A stretch of 64,000 bases of DNA from Pseudomonas sp. ATCC PTA-122608 (lineage in GTDB: Bacteria > Pseudomonadota > Gammaproteobacteria > Pseudomonadales > Pseudomonadaceae). Under the pieces are notes generated by a model, which saw only the letters and a program-made list of their open reading frames with translations, ran no database searches and was not told where the DNA came from. Positions 42,558-50,732 of the stretch are shown one piece after another; the stretch's first letter is position 1; each line of letters begins with the position of its first letter. A program made the position numbers and the translations under genes. Location of the stretch: positions 40,459 to 104,458 of the forward strand of contig NZ_LPNO01000002.1 of assembly GCF_001952855.1 (NCBI RefSeq), in the 5' to 3' direction.

Positions 42558-42901
42558 ACCTGACGCCCCAGCAGCACCACACCGGCAATCACCAGCAGCA
42601 CACCGAACCAGTGGCGGCCATCGATGTGTTCATGGAACACAAAGCGCGCCACCAGGGTGACCAGTACAAAGTTGAGGCTGAGCATCGGGTAGGCGATGCC
42701 GACTTCCAGGCGTTGCAGCACCAGCAGCCACACCAGCAAACCCAGGCCCAGGCACACCAGCGCCGACCACAGCCACGGCGAGCGCAACTTTAAGGCCCAG
42801 CCGTCGGGCTGGTCACGCCAGCCTTCCACGGCAAACTTCTGGGACACCTGGCCCATGCAGGTCAGCAGGCAGGCACCTAACAACAGCAGCAGAGTGGTCA
42901 T
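42554..42901 (-). CDS. arnE: ArnE subunit of undecaprenyl-phosphate-L-Ara4N flippase
   Basis: A 115-residue SMR-like protein with four helices ([72 protein letters not shown]). It is the partner of ArnF. ATGA overlaps with arnT and arnF show strict coupling. Confidence 0.9.
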
Positions 42902-44553
42902 GGCGCGCTCTGCGGGTAGATCAAAATCACGATATTGCCCTGCTCGTAACGCTTGCCGTCTTTAGGCAGCAGGTCAACTTCCTGGCGTTCGTCGTCACCT
43001 TTGACCCGCATCACCACGCCCACCGAGCCTTGTTTGCGCGCATCGCTCATCCATTGCTGGACGCTGGCGGCATCGATCTTGCGGTAAGCGGTGTCCGGGA
43101 AGGCGATGCCGTATTTCACTTCGCCAACGGTGTTGTAGAGCATCACTTCAGGCCGCTGCAGGCGCCACGACAAGGCCGATGCAGCGCCGAGGTCGTTGCT
43201 CAGCAACGCAGTGGTCGGCTGCAGTTCCTGGAGGTGATCGATGATGAACTGGTCCGGGGTCTTGTTATAAACCACCGAGTGCGGCAACGCGGCCGGCACC
43301 AGCGCCACCAGCAACCAACTGCCAATCACCGGCGCGGCCCACATCTGCAGCGGGCGGGCGGCTTGCAGCAGGTTGGCGATGATCCAGCCGAACAGGAACA
43401 CGAACACCAGCACCAGGCTCAGAGTTTCCTGGCCGTGCTCATACACCGGCTTCTTCAACTGGAACCAGGTCAGGGCCAGCAGGCCCAGCACGCCGATGAT
43501 CAGGTTCAGCCAGCCATTGATGCGCAATACGCGGCCACGGGCCTGGCCCAGTTTCTCGGCCAGGGTATGCCCCATCAACAACGCCAGAGGCAGCAGGCAC
43601 GGCATGATGTAGGACGGCAGCTTGCCTTTGGCCAGGCTGAAGAACGCCAGCGGCATCAGTAGCCATAGCAGCAGGAAGCCGATGTTGGCACTGCGCTTTT
43701 CCAGCCACGCCTGTTTCACGGTGGACGGCAGCAACGCCATCCACGGCAGGCTGAACGCGACCAGCAGCGGCAGGTAGTACCAGAACGGCTCGGCATGTTG
43801 CGCATCGTCGCCGGCAAAGCGCTGGATGTGCTCGTGCCAGAAGAAGAAGTTCCAGTAATCCGGTTCCTGGGCATGCACCATCAGGGCCCAGGGCAGGCTC
43901 ACGAGAATCGCCACGGCCACGGCCACCAGGCCATAGGTGAGCAGTTCACGGAAGCGTTTCTGCCAGAGCATGTAGGGCAGGGCGATCAACACCGGCAACA
44001 ACCAGGCGAGGAAACCCTTGGTCATGAAGCCCATGCCACAGGCGAACCCGAGCAAGGCCCACGACCACAAGCGGCCACGGGTCGTGGTGCTGTCGAAACA
44101 GAACCACAGCGCGGCGCCGGTCAGGTTGACCCAGAAGGTGAACTGCGGATCGAGGTTGGCATAGCCCGCCAGGAACGCGACGCTGACGAAACTCATGTAC
44201 AGCACGGCGCTGACCAGGCTCTTGCGCGGGTCGTTCCACAAACGCCGGGCCACGCAGTACACCAGCAGGATGCTCAAGCCGGTGCTCAAGGCCGAGGCGA
44301 AACGCACGCCGAACAGGTTCTGGCCGAAGATCGCCTGGCCCAGCGCGATCATCCAGTAGCCGGCCGCAGGCTTCTCGAAGTAGCGAATCCCCATGAAGTG
44401 CGGCGAAGCCCATTTGCCGGTCAGCAGCATTTCCTGGCTGATCTGCGCATAGCGGGTTTCGTCGGGAATCCATAGACCATGGGTGGCCAACGGGATCAGG
44501 TAGAACACCCCGAAAGCCAGCAGGAGCAGGGGCAGGGCCCAGCGCCGGATCAT
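42898..44553 (-). CDS. arnT: ArnT, L-Ara4N transferase to lipid A
   Basis: A 551-residue polytopic glycosyltransferase, close to the E. coli ArnT length. The first periplasmic loop has the catalytic-type acidic motif [18 protein letters not shown], followed by [19 protein letters not shown], about twelve helices and a C-terminal periplasmic domain. It moves L-Ara4N from undecaprenyl phosphate to lipid A phosphates, which lowers binding of polymyxin and cationic peptides. Confidence 0.93.
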
Positions 44554-45437
44554 GCCTTTTGCACTCCGAGCCAGCCTTCACGGCCGCTCAGCGCACCGCG
44601 CACCAGCTGTTGCTGGGGCAGGGTGCTCAGGTCGGCGGGCAACAGGTCGCCCAACGGTTTGAATTGAATGCCGCGCTGCCCTGCCTGGGCGAGCAACTGA
44701 CGAAAATCATTGGCCATCAGAATCCCTTCTACTTCTGCGTGGATCGTATAGACGTTGAGCTTCGACGGCTTGAAGCGGTCGAGGATGTACGCGTTGAAAT
44801 CCTTGGCGGCCACCACCGGGCCCACGACTTCGTCGAAGGTCGGCATGTCTACCGGAATTTGTGGAGTGCCGGCACTGCCATCCGCCAGGGTTGGCCGGAA
44901 CAGGCTGGTACCCCGGCAATCGCTGTTGTAACGGAAGTTGAACGATTGCTTGGCTTGCACCACGCGCTCATCGGAACGCCAGCCGGCGGCGGCTGAGCAG
45001 TCGATGCGCTCACCGAGGATGTCGCTCAAGGTGTCGACGCCACGGCGAATCTGTTCGATCAACTGTGCATCGCTCCAACTCCCGGTGTTGGCTTGCCAGC
45101 CATGGTGGTCCCAGGCGTGCAGCCCGACTTCATGCCCGGCAGCCTTGGCCTGGCGCATCAAGTGCCCCAGGTCGCGGCCAATGGGTTTGCCCGGCCAGGC
45201 GGTGCCGGCCAGCAAAATGTCCCAGCCGTACAAACCGGCAGCGTTGGAGCGCAGCATCTTCCACAGGAATTGCGGGCGGATCAGGCGCCACAAGTGGCGC
45301 CCCATGTTGTCCGGCCCGACGCTGAAGAAGAAGGTCGCCTTGACCCCGGCTTCGTCGAGCGACTCCAACAACCTTGGCACGCCTTCGCGGGTGCCTCGGT
45401 AGGTGTCGACGTCGATGCGTAGACCCGCTTGCATCAA
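44550..45437 (-). CDS. arnD: ArnD, undecaprenyl-phosphate-L-Ara4FN deformylase
   Basis: A 295-residue NodB-type deacetylase: [17 protein letters not shown] with the metal-binding Asp, [13 protein letters not shown], and metal-ligand histidines in [11 protein letters not shown]. It removes the formyl group from the lipid-linked sugar on the cytoplasmic face. ATGA overlaps with arnA and arnT. Confidence 0.92.
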
Positions 45438-47425
45438 CGCTTGTCCGCGATTTCGAGCATGGCTTCACGCAGGAAGAAATCCAGGGTGTTGCCGATGGTT
45501 TCACTCATCTCGACGGTAGGCTCCCAGTTCAGCAGGCGCTTGGCGTTGTCGATGCTTGGCTTGCGGTGTGCCACGTCCTGGTAACCGGTGCCGTAGAACG
45601 CCTTGCTCTCTACGTCGCGGAAACCGGCAAACGGAGGGAAGTTGCTGCGCAGCGGGTGAGCTTCGAACTGACGCAGCAGTTCTTCGCCCAACTGACGGAT
45701 GCTGGCTTCGTTCTCCGGGTTACCGATGTTGATGATCTGGCCGTTGCAGTTATCGTTGTCGTTATCGATGATGCGGGCCAGGGCTTCGATGCCGTCGGCG
45801 ATGTCAGTGAAGCAGCGCTTCTGCTCGCCGCCGTCGAACAGACGGATTGGCGTGCCTTCCACCAGGTTCAGGATCAACTGGGTGATGGCGCGGGAGCTGC
45901 CGATACGGGCCGAGTCCAGGCGGTCGAGGCGCGGGCCCATCCAGTTGAATGGACGGAACAGGGTGAACTTCAGGCCTTTGTCGCCGTAAGCCCAGATCAC
46001 GCGGTCCAGCAGTTGCTTGGAAACCGAGTAGATCCAGCGCTGCTTGTTGACCGGGCCCACCACCAGGTTGGAGGTGTCTTCGTCGAAGTACTGGTCCTGG
46101 CACATGCCATACACTTCGGACGTCGACGGGAAGATCACGCGCTTGTTGTACTTCACGCAGTAGCGAACCAGTTTCAGGTTCTCTTCGAAGTCCAGTTCAA
46201 ATACGCGCAACGGGTTGCGGGTGTACTCGATCGGGGTGGCGATGGCTACCAGCGGCAGGACCACGTCGCACTTCTTGATGTGGTACTCGATCCACTCGGA
46301 GTGGATGCTGATGTCGCCTTCCACATAGTGGAAGTTCGGGTGGCTGCGCAGGCGCTCGATCGCGTCGGAGCCAATGTCCAGGCCGTAGATTTCGTAACGG
46401 TCATCACGCAGCAGGCGCTCGGACAGGTGGTTGCCGATAAAGCCGTTCACACCCAGGATCAGCACGCGGGTGCGGCGTGGCTTGCGGCCGGACTCGGCAC
46501 CGCGCAGGACGGAACCGTCCACCAGGCCCAGTTCATCCGCCAGGGACGGGCCGGCCAGGTACAGGCCGTTTTCGTTGCGCTGGCCGAACTTGACCACCAG
46601 GGAGTCTTCGCCGCAGGCGATGCGCAGCGGGTTGACGCTGATCACGCGGCCTGGTGCCAGGCCTTCGTTGCCTTTGACGACTTCAGCGTTCCAGACGATC
46701 AGCTTGTGCTCGCCCACGGCGCAGAAGGCACCCGGGTAAGGCTGGGTAACGGCGCGTACCAGGTTGAACAGTTCTTCAGCCGGTTTTTTCCAGTCCAGCT
46801 TGCCGTCTGCTGCGGTACGACGACCGAAGTAGCTGGCTTTGCTTTCGTCTTGGGCGGTTTCGGTCAGCTTGCCTTGGGCCAGTTGTGGCAGTGCGTCGCG
46901 CAGCAGGCTGGTGGCGGCGTCACGCAGTTTGGCGTGCAAGGTCAGGCCGGTGTCGGTGCGGTCGATCACGACTTTCTGCTGGGCCAGGATCGCGCCGGCA
47001 TCGGCACGCTTGACCATACGGTGCAGGGTCACGCCGGTTTCGGTTTCGCCGTTGACCAGTACCCAGTTGGCCGGTGCGCGGCCACGGTATTGTGGCAGCA
47101 GGGAGCCGTGCAGGTTGAACGCGCCTTTCTTGGCGGTGGCCAGCAGGGCTTCGCTCAGCAGGTTGCGGTAGTAGAACGAGAAAATGTAGTCCGGGTTCAG
47201 CTTGGCGATGCGCTCAATCCACAGCGGGTGGTTGGCGTCTTCCGGGGCATGCACCGGGATGCCGTTGCGGGCGCACAGTTGCGCGACGGAACCGTAGAAA
47301 TTGTTTTCCTTGGGGTCATCGGCATGGGTGAACACGGCAGCAATTTCGTAACCCGCATTGAGCAGGGCTTCGATGCCTGCACAGCCAATATCGTGGTAAG
47401 CGAAGACAACAGCTTTTGAATTCAT
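45434..47425 (-). CDS. arnA: ArnA, bifunctional formyltransferase/UDP-glucuronate decarboxylase
   Basis: A 663-residue two-domain enzyme. The N-terminal formyltransferase (about 1-305) has [19 protein letters not shown] with catalytic Asn and His; the C-terminal decarboxylase (about 317-663) has the NAD motif [27 protein letters not shown] and catalytic [10 protein letters not shown]. It both makes UDP-Ara4O and formylates UDP-Ara4N. Between those two steps the aminotransferase ArnB is required, whose gene is not in this operon. Confidence 0.95.
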
Positions 47426-48456
47426 GACGAAACCTGATCGGAAGGAGAAGTAGAAGTGTGGGAGGAGGTCAGGCCGTCGACCGTGAAGGTCTCGGCCGGC
47501 GCTGCCGGTTGGTTGCGCAGCACTTTTTCAATAAAGAACCGTGGGCGGGCCCGCACATCGCTGTACATGCGGCCCAGGTATTCACCCAAGAGGCCCATGC
47601 CGATGAACTGGCCACCGGTGAACACGAACAGCACGGCGAACAGCACGAACATGCCGTCACCGGCCCAGCCGGCACCGAAGGCCAGGCGCATCACGATCAA
47701 TGCGACCGCAAACAGCATGCCGAGGGCCGCCAGGCTGAAACCGACGATGCTCAACAGGCGCAATGGCGTGGTGGTCATGCAGGTCAGCAGGTCGAACATC
47801 AGGCTGATCAGGCGCATCGGGCTGTACTTGGACTCGCCGTGCTCACGCTCGGCGTGGTGCACGAGGATTTCCGTGGTGTGGCGCGCAAAGCTGTTGGCCA
47901 GGATCGGGATGAAGGTACTGCGCTCGCGGCAGGCCAGCATCGCGTCGACGATGGTGCGGCGGTAAGCGCGCAGCATGCAGCCGTAGTCGCTCATGGCGAC
48001 GCCCGTGGAGCGTTGTACGGCGAGGTTGATCAAGCGCGACGGCCAGCGGCGAAAGGCTGAGTCCTGGCGGTTGTTGCGCACGGTGGCAACCACGTCGTAG
48101 CCCAAGGCGGCCTGCTCGACCAAGCGCGGGATTTCTTCCGGCGGGTTTTGCAGGTCGGCGTCCAGGGTGATCACGACGTCGCCCCGGCAATGCTCGAAGC
48201 CGGCCATGATCGCGGCGTGCTGGCCGTAGTTGCGGTTGAGGATCACCGCGACCACGTTGCTGCCTTCGAGGGCGGCGGCGTCTTCCAGCAATTGCGCGGA
48301 GTTGTCGCGGCTGCCGTCGTCCACCAGGACGATTTCGTATTCGTAGGCCAGTTGCTTGCAGGCCGCCATGGTGCGGCGCAGCAGTTCAGGCAGGCTTTCT
48401 TGTTCGTTGTAGACCGGGATAACGATCGACACGCAATGAATTGGGTAGGGTTTCAA
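47422..48456 (-). CDS. arnC: ArnC, undecaprenyl-phosphate Ara4FN transferase
   Basis: A 344-residue GT2 glycosyltransferase: [35 protein letters not shown] and catalytic [14 protein letters not shown], then two C-terminal helices ([39 protein letters not shown]). TTG at 48456 is the start, with GAGG 10 bases upstream; the ATG 8 bases upstream is out of frame and closes after three codons. It is the first gene of this operon. Confidence 0.93.
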
Positions 48457-48925: not shown

Positions 48926-49714
48926 ATGAATAGCGTGCAGCGTTTACGGCCAATGTTGATGGTGTTGTTAATGACGGTGGCCTGGGCCACGAGTGTGCGG
49001 GCCGATGACGGCGTGGCACTGACGGCCATCGACCAGGTGCCCGATGGCGTAGAAGTGCGGGGTAAACAGGTCGGTGCCTTCACCTGGAGTGATAAACAGG
49101 GCAAGAACCTGTTGGTGCTCGCTGAGCAAGTCAGCGAACGCGACGACGACGGCGCGCAGTCGGCCTTTGTCTACGCGGCCCAGTACCTGCTCGACGGTGA
49201 TCGGCCCAAGCGGGTGTGGATGCTCTACGACGACGTGCAGCATTGCGAGTTCGACGCCGGGGCGCACTACAACACCGAGGCCACCAAGGTTACCGATCTA
49301 CTGGGTGACGGCATCAGCCAGGTGACGGTGGGTTACAGCCGTACCTGCACCAGCGATGTCAGCCCCAATGATTTCAAGCTGATCATGCACATCGGCAAGT
49401 CGCAGAAGTACCGCCTGCGCGGCATCGACCGCTATGGCGCCAGCTGGTGGGATGAAGACGCCGGCGCCCTGCAAGGCATGCCGTTGCCCAAGGATTGCAG
49501 CATCGTCGCCCAGCAAGCGCTGGTCAGCCAGTACAAGGAGCAGGGCACCGAGCTGCCGCTTCCCGGCTGTTATGGCGACGAGGAGGACTTTGCCAAGGCG
49601 CCCAAACCGTACCTGGCGTTCATGCGCCAGCACTGGTTTGCCTTGATGCAGAAGCAGGACACCAACTGGAGCCAGCAGCAGACGCCAGCCCCGACGGAAG
49701 ACGATCAGGAATAG
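48926..49714 (+). CDS. Secreted protein of unknown function
   Basis: A 262-residue protein with a signal peptide (LMVLLMTVAWATSVRA/DD, about 10-26). The body is soluble and acidic, with paired Cys (HCEFDAG, YSRTCTSD, KDCSIV, LPGCYGD) that could form disulfides, and the phrase VTDLLGDGISQVTVGYSRTC seen in the M949_RS01915-type surface-polysaccharide-related family. That family link is tentative. The C-terminus is Gln-rich. It appears to be a single-gene unit. Confidence 0.6.
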   Translation: MNSVQRLRPMLMVLLMTVAWATSVRADDGVALTAIDQVPDGVEVRGKQVGAFTWSDKQGKNLLVLAEQVSERDDDGAQSAFVYAAQYLLDGDRPKRVWMLYDDVQHCEFDAGAHYNTEATKVTDLLGDGISQVTVGYSRTCTSDVSPNDFKLIMHIGKSQKYRLRGIDRYGASWWDEDAGALQGMPLPKDCSIVAQQALVSQYKEQGTELPLPGCYGDEEDFAKAPKPYLAFMRQHWFALMQKQDTNWSQQQTPAPTEDDQE

Positions 49715-49758: not shown

Positions 49759-49798
49759 TAAATATGTCGATTAAACAGATGGTTAGTCGACATATTTA
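49759..49798. promoter_or_regulatory. 16-8-16 inverted repeat, candidate recombinase core site
   Basis: TAAATATGTCGATTAA (49759-49774) and TTAGTCGACATATTTA (49783-49798) are inverse with one mismatch (15 of 16), around the 8-bp spacer ACAGATGG. The layout matches tyrosine-recombinase core sites (two arms around a 6-8 bp crossover region). It ends 19 bases before the start codon of the recombinase gene, so it may also serve as its operator. Confidence 0.65.
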
Positions 49799-49817
49799 AT
49801 CCAAAGGCTGATCTACC

Positions 49818-50732
49818 TTGACTGAGTCTACCCGCAACCCGCTGACCCTCTACCTCACCCGCCTGGCGCCTTCCAGCCAGCTGACCATGCGCTACGTGCT
49901 GCAAGACGCCGCCGACCGCCTGGGCTTTGAAGACATCAACCTCGAAGACATCGACTGGCACTTGCTGCAACCCGAACACGTTATGGCCCTGGTGGCGGCG
50001 CTGCGGGAAGACGGTTATGCGCCGAACACCTCCTCGCTGTACGTCAACGCCGTGCGCGGGGTGATGAACGAAGCCTGGCGCATGAGTCTGATCAGCCAGG
50101 ACCACCTGTTGAAGATGCGCTCGGTCAAGGCCATGGCCGGCACACGGCTGAGCCAGGGTCGCAACCTGCGGCGCACCTTGATTCGTGAGTTGATGGAGGT
50201 CTGCGCCGCCGACCCGCGCCCCCAGGGCCTGCGGGATGCAGCGGTGATCGGGATCCTGTATGGCTCGGGGATGCGCAAGTCGGAGTCGGTGAATATCGAG
50301 CTGGGCCAGGTCAATTTTGACGAGCGCAGCCTGCAGGTCACCGGCAAGGGCAACAAACAACTGATCAAGTACGCGCCGGCCTGGGCCTTTGCCAAGCTGG
50401 AGGCGTGGCTTGAGTTCCGTCGCAGCCAGTTGAAACCCGGTGAGCAGGACGACAGGTTCCTGTTCAACCGCATTCGCCGGGGCAGCCATATCACCCGCGA
50501 GCGCATCACCAAGCACGCGATTTACTACATCGCCCGCCAGCGCGGCGAGCAAGTCGGCGTGAAGATCATGCCCCATGATTTCCGCCGTTCGTTCATCACC
50601 CGGGTGATTGAAGAGTACGACCTGTCCATCGCCCAGAAGCTGGCGCACCACACCAATATCCAGACCACCGCCAACTATGACGTGCGTGACGACAATGAAC
50701 GGCGGCGGGCGGTGGATCGATTTGATTTGTAG
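49818..50732 (+). CDS. Solitary tyrosine recombinase
   Basis: A 304-residue integrase/recombinase: N-terminal SAM-like core-binding domain (about 8-100) and catalytic domain with Arg153 (YGSGMRKSE), Lys177 (VTGKGNK), His253-x-x-Arg256 (MPHDFRRSF), His278 (KLAHHTN) and the nucleophile Tyr287 (TTANYDV). All catalytic residues are intact. The start is TTG at 49818 with AAAGG upstream. No phage, transposon or integron gene surrounds it and no att-type tRNA is nearby, so it may be a Xer-like or DNA-inversion enzyme acting on the adjacent inverted repeat. Confidence 0.88.
   Translation: MTESTRNPLTLYLTRLAPSSQLTMRYVLQDAADRLGFEDINLEDIDWHLLQPEHVMALVAALREDGYAPNTSSLYVNAVRGVMNEAWRMSLISQDHLLKMRSVKAMAGTRLSQGRNLRRTLIRELMEVCAADPRPQGLRDAAVIGILYGSGMRKSESVNIELGQVNFDERSLQVTGKGNKQLIKYAPAWAFAKLEAWLEFRRSQLKPGEQDDRFLFNRIRRGSHITRERITKHAIYYIARQRGEQVGVKIMPHDFRRSFITRVIEEYDLSIAQKLAHHTNIQTTANYDVRDDNERRRAVDRFDL

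Follow-up and report, generated by a model that had tools for sequence, protein, structure and literature searches.

What does a solitary tyrosine recombinase of Pseudomonas act on, when the nearest candidate site is an inverted repeat directly in front of its own gene? The question arises from a stretch of 64 kb (the window), for which a sequence-only reading had described an intact, solitary recombinase with its own core-like site and had offered three explanations: a self-regulating enzyme, a resolvase for a remote identical site, or the remnant of an excised element. The description itself was borne out. The gene (49818–50732, forward strand, TTG start) is an open reading frame for a Xer-like protein of 304 aa that belongs to PF00589 (84.6 bits against a gathering threshold of 27.1; E 8.9e-24), and R153, K177, H253, R256, H277, H278 and Y287, which we take to be the catalytic R-K-H-R-H/W-Y set of tyrosine recombinases, are invariant across 15 aligned orthologues. 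The protein scores well below the NCBIfam equivalog cut-offs for XerC (112.7 vs. 335.15 bits), XerD (100 vs. 329.6), XerS (86.2 vs. 267) and XerA (92.3 vs. 220), and below that for integrase_gron (36.3 vs. 265). Among solved structures it is matched best by XerD, an XerC-like protein and XerA and less well by XerH, and its own structure model is poor (mean pLDDT 65). Two other Xer-like matches in the same genome, 32% and 29% identical to it, are presumably XerC and XerD.

Within the genus as defined by GTDB, 206 of 298 genomes match the recombinase at E ≤ 1e-20. Six of them, at E 5e-21 to 1e-20, were excluded as non-orthologous (the next weakest listed match lies at 1e-117) and 200 were kept; one genome (G005) has two matches at this threshold and the others one each. 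A survey of 148 genomes of the family added a clear orthologue in a single non-Pseudomonas genome, with neither palindrome nor dif in the 20 kb fetched around the gene (G423), and distant matches in five more. The best 80 named loci carrying the recombinase are all Pseudomonas, P. sp. K2I15 and P. yamanorum being the nearest. With a median dN/dS of 0.108 (519 pairs, random sample, dS 0.1–1.5), the gene is, by this measure, under strong purifying selection. The window holds no tRNA, and the earlier statement that no mobile element lies around the gene is uncontradicted within it, but it overlooks the activity of filamentous phages, integrated at dif, at the remote site described below. Upstream of the recombinase, reverse-strand genes at 42898–48456 resemble the lipid A aminoarabinose operon and are presumably arn; the gene just before the repeat (48926–49714) matches NF046077 of NCBIfam, a surface polysaccharide biosynthesis protein family, and a recurring gene block stands 5′ of the recombinase in many of the best 80 named loci.

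The repeat consists of a left arm (49759–49774, forward strand, TAAATATGTCGATTAA), an asymmetric 8-bp spacer (49775–49782, ACAGATGG) and a right arm (49783–49798, reverse strand, TTAGTCGACATATTTA, reverse complement TAAATATGTCGACTAA); the arms agree at 15 of 16 positions and the whole ends 20 bp 5′ of the gene, and both repeat and gene lie at the positions given by the sequence-only reading. The window has a single 16-8-16 pattern of this kind, where 100 shuffles give an expectation of 0.00. Further copies of the arms in the same genome did not stand out: at up to three mismatches we counted 35 matches, against 31 for a reversed control pattern, and the only two exact ones are the repeat itself, followed by three with two mismatches. 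Conservation of the repeat beside orthologues, the lack of which would by that reading's own terms have told against it, divides by clade. Scanned strictly (8-bp spacer, 12 or more matching positions of 16 in the arms), 30 of 32 loci of the fluorescens-type clade have the repeat 5′ of the gene, the other two having weaker versions in the same place, whereas 58 loci of other clades have different upstream DNA and lack the repeat in this form; we therefore rejected it as a feature of all clades. Nor did 26 loci scanned for strict repeats up to 10 kb from the gene, some on shorter stretches, have anything in common. In many loci of another clade (within L031–L055) a conserved leader of another kind, containing a motif that resembles GTTCAGACTTCTGCCGTTTATCG, lies some 60–165 bp before the gene. 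Repeated GTCAT/ATGAC half sites, partly with 8-bp spacing and perhaps operators, precede the recombinase in distant clades (L069, L070, L077, L080, L083, L085).

A second site came to light at the replication terminus. Scanning near dif, the XerCD site there, revealed a 12-8-12 palindrome, TAACTMAACTAA-N8-TTAGTTKAGTTA, upstream of dif in most loci and always named here by that linkage; it stands on the XerC-arm side. Searched genome-wide as TARCTMAACTAA-N8-TTAGTTKAGYTA at up to three mismatches, the palindrome occurs in 200 of 298 genomes and a reversed control pattern in 8. Recombinase and palindrome are found together in 193 genomes, the gene alone in 7, the palindrome alone in 7 and neither in 91 (odds ratio 358; Fisher p 7e-59, a value inflated because species are not independent). 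An impression that one group of genomes (group B) lacks the palindrome near dif was rejected, since the repeat threshold had been too strict. Four loci without recombinase keep the palindrome 0.75–1.6 kb from dif (L217–L220, in G035, G092, G220 and G169), either because the gene was lost recently or because of a gap in the assembly.

The palindrome is bound to dif at short range: over 90 loci, at least one genome being represented twice (L139/L315) and 8 prophage loci excluded, the median distance is 770 bp, and the overall range runs from 88 bp in phages to 3.5 kb. Around listed palindromes, 39 of 40 fetched loci have dif 609–3463 bp away, downstream and on the same side (for G005, whose dif was already known, a longer stretch was taken to include it); the exception, L331, has no dif within 3.5 kb. 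The gene is linked more loosely. A dif at no more than two mismatches was found in 47 of 56 genomes searched; leaving aside three recombinase-negative genomes and seven without a gene position, dif lies downstream of the recombinase in 37 of 37 (0.5–308 kb, median 35 kb) and in the same orientation in 34. Recombinase-negative genomes of few contigs also have dif, in 22 of 22 cases at up to three mismatches, and in all 20 of their dif regions fetched the palindrome is absent from about 2.6 kb upstream even at six mismatches. A single palindrome is present in 180 of the 200 palindrome-bearing genomes and several in 20, of which 12 are without an identified prophage. In these twelve genomes (G011, G051, G100, G129 and eight more) a second palindrome lies off dif, 14–185 kb apart where on the same contig.

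In the genome under study, the palindrome lies at C2:111387–111418 (70929–70960 in window numbering, outside the window), about 20 kb downstream of the recombinase gene and 1.36 kb before dif (C2:112749–112772). The recombinase thus has a putative cognate site near the replication terminus, as single-recombinase Xer/dif systems do, cognate in the sense of co-occurrence, and this dif-linked palindrome is probably its main target. The earlier reading's resolvase for a remote identical site thus comes near the mark, the remote site being related and not identical. How the two sites relate can be read from a matrix built on 48 distinct dif-linked sites, chromosomal and phage. It ranks the window repeat first in the 64 kb (score 2.9; next −6.5), picking exactly the inner 12-8-12 core (49763–49794), which is therefore probably the part that matters, and it finds the same register in 48 of 52 gene-adjacent repeats of relatives. 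Rank and shared register together suggest that the window repeat is a diverged relative of the dif-linked palindrome; its arms equal the consensus at 8 and 9 of 12 positions, and the spacer is different.

What this diverged copy does now is a separate matter. Its arms co-vary: in an alignment of 52 fluorescens-type loci, built without L114, L122, L125 and L144 because of shifted coordinates, 93.1% of dyad cells form a standard pair when G·U is counted in, and double changes occupy 47 cells against 13.8 after shuffling. Among the outer 12 pairs, G·U outnumbers A·C mismatches by 33 to 8, compared with 14 to 12 in dif-linked sites, counts that ignore phylogeny. Both observations would fit a repeat whose only role is that of a hairpin in the mRNA or an operator for the recombinase gene, with no crossover function, a possibility for the window repeat that we consider evenly balanced; against it, the matrix rank and the register kept in relatives make common descent or shared binding likely. 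Standing directly before the start codon, with mismatches that lean to G·U, the repeat may act as a brake on the recombinase; as a diverged copy of the palindrome, it has probably been retained for a role as operator and/or mRNA hairpin that would lower expression. The self-regulating recombinase of the sequence-only reading accordingly keeps its plausibility, given a repeat that is conserved in its clade, co-varies in its arms and lies immediately before the start codon.

Between palindrome and dif lies a slot whose content turns over. The 90 chromosomal loci contain 40 slot contents unrelated at the DNA level, some groups of which are still related as proteins; exactly one ORF of at least 80 aa fills 65 of the 90, and 11 have none. 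In the genome under study the slot encodes an HxlR regulator and a short-chain dehydrogenase. Ten slot proteins from nine slots gave HxlR, dehydrogenase, Cupin_5, hexapeptide transferase, DUF4019, Hsp20, carbonic anhydrase, carbon-nitrogen hydrolase and, in a phage slot, LprI as Pfam families, with no family for one protein. The slot of G108 is occupied by none other than the recombinase gene, and in this one sense the remnant of an excised element suggested earlier is possible. Another slot (L333, in G005) contains an IS21-type pair, presumably IstA and IstB, which accounts for its palindrome–dif distance of 3.46 kb.

Comparing 48 loci, prophage loci included, we found homology in the 750 bp of left flank in 151 of 1128 pairs and common slot content in only 18 of these 151; all 150 pairs homologous in the next 750 bp outward are also homologous in the inner 750 bp. 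A comparison of homology edges over 54 loci (one of them entered twice) covers 144 pairs on the left side: the edge falls inside or directly at the palindrome in 70 pairs, short of it by 10–42 bp in 52 and by more in 18, and past it in 4. On the right side, 31 of 73 pairs have homology that starts at dif. The left edge is blurred by upstream genes, many of which stop shortly ahead of the palindrome, and by a short intergenic stretch that is variable.

The likely carriers of new slots are filamentous phages. Eight multi-palindrome genomes have filamentous prophages near dif, with Rep (G2P), a Zot-type assembly protein, a secretin and a repressor identified by Pfam in examples. The repeat unit of all five tandem arrays terminates within the dif core, and internal junctions, where displayed, have a degraded XerD arm, which shows these prophages to be integrated at dif; a junction at dif with a degenerate XerD arm, as in IMEX phages, is found in all five. 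Integration at the palindrome itself was considered and rejected on the same array boundaries. The dif-proximal prophage carries a palindrome 88–1162 bp before dif, and in all eight genomes a further palindrome with different flanks stands outside the prophage. The phage module thus reads palindrome, cargo (mostly one gene) and dif-like attP. Scanning 2.9 million viral contigs yielded 39 with the palindrome, 34 of them with at least one inovirus marker match (in two a single weak one) and 25 with an XerC arm 88–1096 bp from the palindrome, one of these read across contig ends. None of the 39 matches a profile of this recombinase at E 1e-3, and 50,697 phage records gave 24 matches to it, all below 60% identity. 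Four related inoviruses, drawn from 22 matched phage-collection records (three from P. aeruginosa hosts, one from a bird swab), have dif-like sites and no palindrome at five mismatches. The one recombinase-negative genome found with a tandem prophage beside dif (G014; 80 of 91 such genomes searched) is likewise without a palindrome there. A dependence of these phages on the recombinase was dropped as an idea: Rep was found in 4 of 80 recombinase-positive and 1 of 80 recombinase-negative genomes (80 of 200 and 80 of 91, taken in listing order), figures that we did not consider usable.

Further evidence comes from slots common to phage and chromosome. When the 90 loci were compared with 86 phage stretches, up to 600 bp of flank being offered on each side, 10 had a phage match of at least 150 bp and six of these matches cover the phage slot: L112, L128 and L132 match that of L241 at 91.0, 88.7 and 92.0%, L301 and L325 that of L201 at 92.3 and 87.6%, and L333 that of L227 at 92.8%, followed by the IS21-type insertion. 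All six start at −3 to 0 of the palindrome. The right edge tells less: for viral contigs it is set by the cut at the XerC arm, and in L301 and L325 it coincides with the end of dif, but there host DNA flanks both of the sequences compared. No phage body markers surround the six slots within 10 kb per side (L112, L128, L132) or about 3.5 kb (the others), and the whole genomes behind L301 (G105) and L333 (G005) have no match to Rep. In two further loci (L105, L127) part of the slot matches phage, and in another two (L081, L218) phage-like DNA lies on the left side of the palindrome, which may mean that certain chromosomal palindromes belong to phage remnants. Taken together, these comparisons support slot transfer between phage and chromosome well.

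The position of the crossover is less clear. Four of the six transferred slots have the same spacer as the phage, and the remaining two have a single-base difference in it. L132 and L325 have hybrid arms, the right one as in the phage and the left one not, the arrangement that a crossover within the spacer would produce. In L112 and L128 neither arm equals that of the phage, in L301 both do, and in L333 the right arm differs, leaning opposite to the hybrid expectation. A wider test of linkage between left arm and left flank and between right arm and cargo had no clear result, and identical spacers in multi-site genomes appear, by eye, no rarer than the 10% of unrelated pairs. We regard a crossover point within the palindrome spacer as weakly supported.

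From dif linkage, co-occurrence, slot turnover, the phage modules and slot edges at palindrome and dif, we judge it somewhat more probable than its negation that the recombinase at 49818–50732 is the enzyme of a terminus-linked, site-specific cassette-exchange system with the palindrome as its main target. The following order of steps is proposed. Host XerCD would insert filamentous phage DNA at dif, as the array junctions imply, and the phage would bring its own palindrome–cargo–attP module. The solitary recombinase, by binding both palindromes, would recombine the chromosomal one with that of the phage, and the resulting deletion would remove the phage body along with the old cargo and leave new cargo between one palindrome and dif. 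Alternatively, exchange might proceed as a direct double crossover. Insertion followed by palindrome deletion would explain why 180 of 200 genomes have one palindrome in spite of slot turnover. It leaves unexplained that tandem prophages with identical, directly repeated palindromes persist in G171, G059, G200, G192 and G221; the recombinase cannot be constantly efficient, and its activity would have to be low, induced or under FtsK-like control. Nor would simple recombination be open to the host and phage palindromes in six of the eight prophage genomes, where their spacers are different or inverted. Seen more broadly, and here we are evenly divided, some two thirds of Pseudomonas species may possess a natural cassette-exchange platform at the terminus, in which a slot for one gene lies between the sites of two systems, XerCD/dif and recombinase/palindrome, with filamentous phages as the shuttles. 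Such a platform would let hosts acquire genes much as integrons do, by a different construction and perhaps to their benefit, and the phages would in turn pick up host genes.

Much of this evidence could also be arranged around defence or chromosome maintenance. A host device that evicts filamentous prophages from dif, with cargo exchange as a by-product, would leave the intermediate seen in the eight prophage genomes (palindrome, phage, phage palindrome, dif) and slots that match those of phages and lack phage markers. It is odd on such terms that the phages carry and keep a palindrome that could only harm them, and Rep is no rarer in genomes with the recombinase; we consider eviction unlikely, if a serious contender. 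Somewhat doubtful too, and in our estimate rather unlikely, is a second, single-recombinase system of chromosome dimer resolution beside XerCD/dif, comparable with XerS, XerH or XerL, in which the slot would be no more than a trace of phages hitting dif. The Xer-like protein, its strong purifying selection and the one palindrome per genome, near dif wherever both were placed except in L331, all speak for it, as does XerL of the Legionellales, which in the available text of PMC9765430 acts alone on long perfect arms and is accompanied by an element with a dif mimic. Against it, the genome under study has dif and two further Xer-like genes, and dif in all 22 recombinase-negative genomes indicates that a second dimer-resolution system is not needed; on its own it would also leave the loss of old palindromes during slot turnover and the slot edges at the palindrome unexplained.

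The tight linkage to dif (median 770 bp over the 90 loci) raises the thought that the recombinase is an architectural or regulatory partner of XerCD, with the palindrome as an accessory site and no recombination of its own. The expected catalytic residues are invariant, the distance to dif varies from 88 bp to 3.5 kb and the palindrome coincides with DNA breakpoints, and so we hold this to be very improbable. That a chance repeat merely adjoins an ordinary prophage integrase finds a foothold in the generic family match, yet the conserved repeat, the co-occurrence and the dif linkage contradict it, as do the phage records, whose 24 matches all fall below 60% identity; it deserves practically no credence.

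If cassette exchange is taken as the working interpretation, comparison with described systems places it between several of them. Like XerS/difSL, XerH/difH and XerL/dif, it pairs one Xer-like recombinase with a palindromic site near the terminus and with elements that mimic the site. It differs from these single-recombinase systems in that XerCD-type genes and dif coexist with it, the site adjoins dif and a variable gene slot lies between the two; XerCD/dif has not been replaced in the host, in which dif and two Xer-like matches are present. The closest in style is, by analogy, XerL of the Legionellales, with one recombinase and long uninterrupted site arms, found through the element with the dif mimic; in L. 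pneumophila the xerL gene lies more than 400 kb from its site (both from the accessible part of PMC9765430). A classical dif is given for P. aeruginosa by Carnoy and Roten (PMC2731167). Tandem dif integration and accessory genes near dif are described for the UPPhi phages in the available part of PMC7307601. With the IMEX phages (CTXphi, UPPhi) the site-bearing phages have in common a dif-like attP with a degraded XerD arm and tandem arrays at dif; unlike them, they add a second, host-type palindrome, mostly with a cargo gene before attP. Integrons, too, use a tyrosine recombinase to take up single genes at one fixed position, but here the integrase score lies below its cut-off, we saw no cassette array, and two recombination systems bound one slot. 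The pdif modules of Acinetobacter plasmids are genes bounded by Xer-type sites; here only one boundary is a XerCD site and the other belongs to a different recombinase. Engineered recombinase-mediated cassette exchange swaps cargo between two heterospecific, non-cross-reacting sites from one molecule to another; the present exchange would be natural, located at the replication terminus and supplied by phage donors.

In the available portions of PMC9765430, PMC2731167, PMC8138268, PMC7307601, PMC10653934, PMC10534721 and PMC2718517, no second recombinase site beside dif is described, and the accessible part of a large classification of tyrosine recombinases (PMC8138268) has no solitary Pseudomonas class that we could see. 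Titles and the beginnings of abstracts of open PubMed Central papers, a scope that leaves subscription papers and preprints aside, yielded nothing on this recombinase/palindrome system, and the letters of the palindrome were found in 36 papers, of which the 15 listed mostly concern human DNA methylation. A conserved and unexplained recombinase gains a concrete candidate target. If cassette exchange is correct, it represents a gene-exchange system that we have not found described, it explains one strain-variable spot at the Pseudomonas chromosome terminus, and filamentous phages move single genes into a fixed place without staying. Cargo of the slot includes a small heat-shock protein, carbonic anhydrase, a hexapeptide transferase and a dehydrogenase, and the pair of recombination sites is open to direct study on reporter plasmids. 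Two features of the terminus itself are added here. DNA to the right of dif turns over faster than the slot: of 1128 pairs, 36 show homology in the 750 bp nearest to dif and 4 in the stretch that follows. A number of loci (L196, L197, L299, L303, L304 and others) have a changed XerC arm in dif, with CGTGTAATG replacing CGCATAATG.
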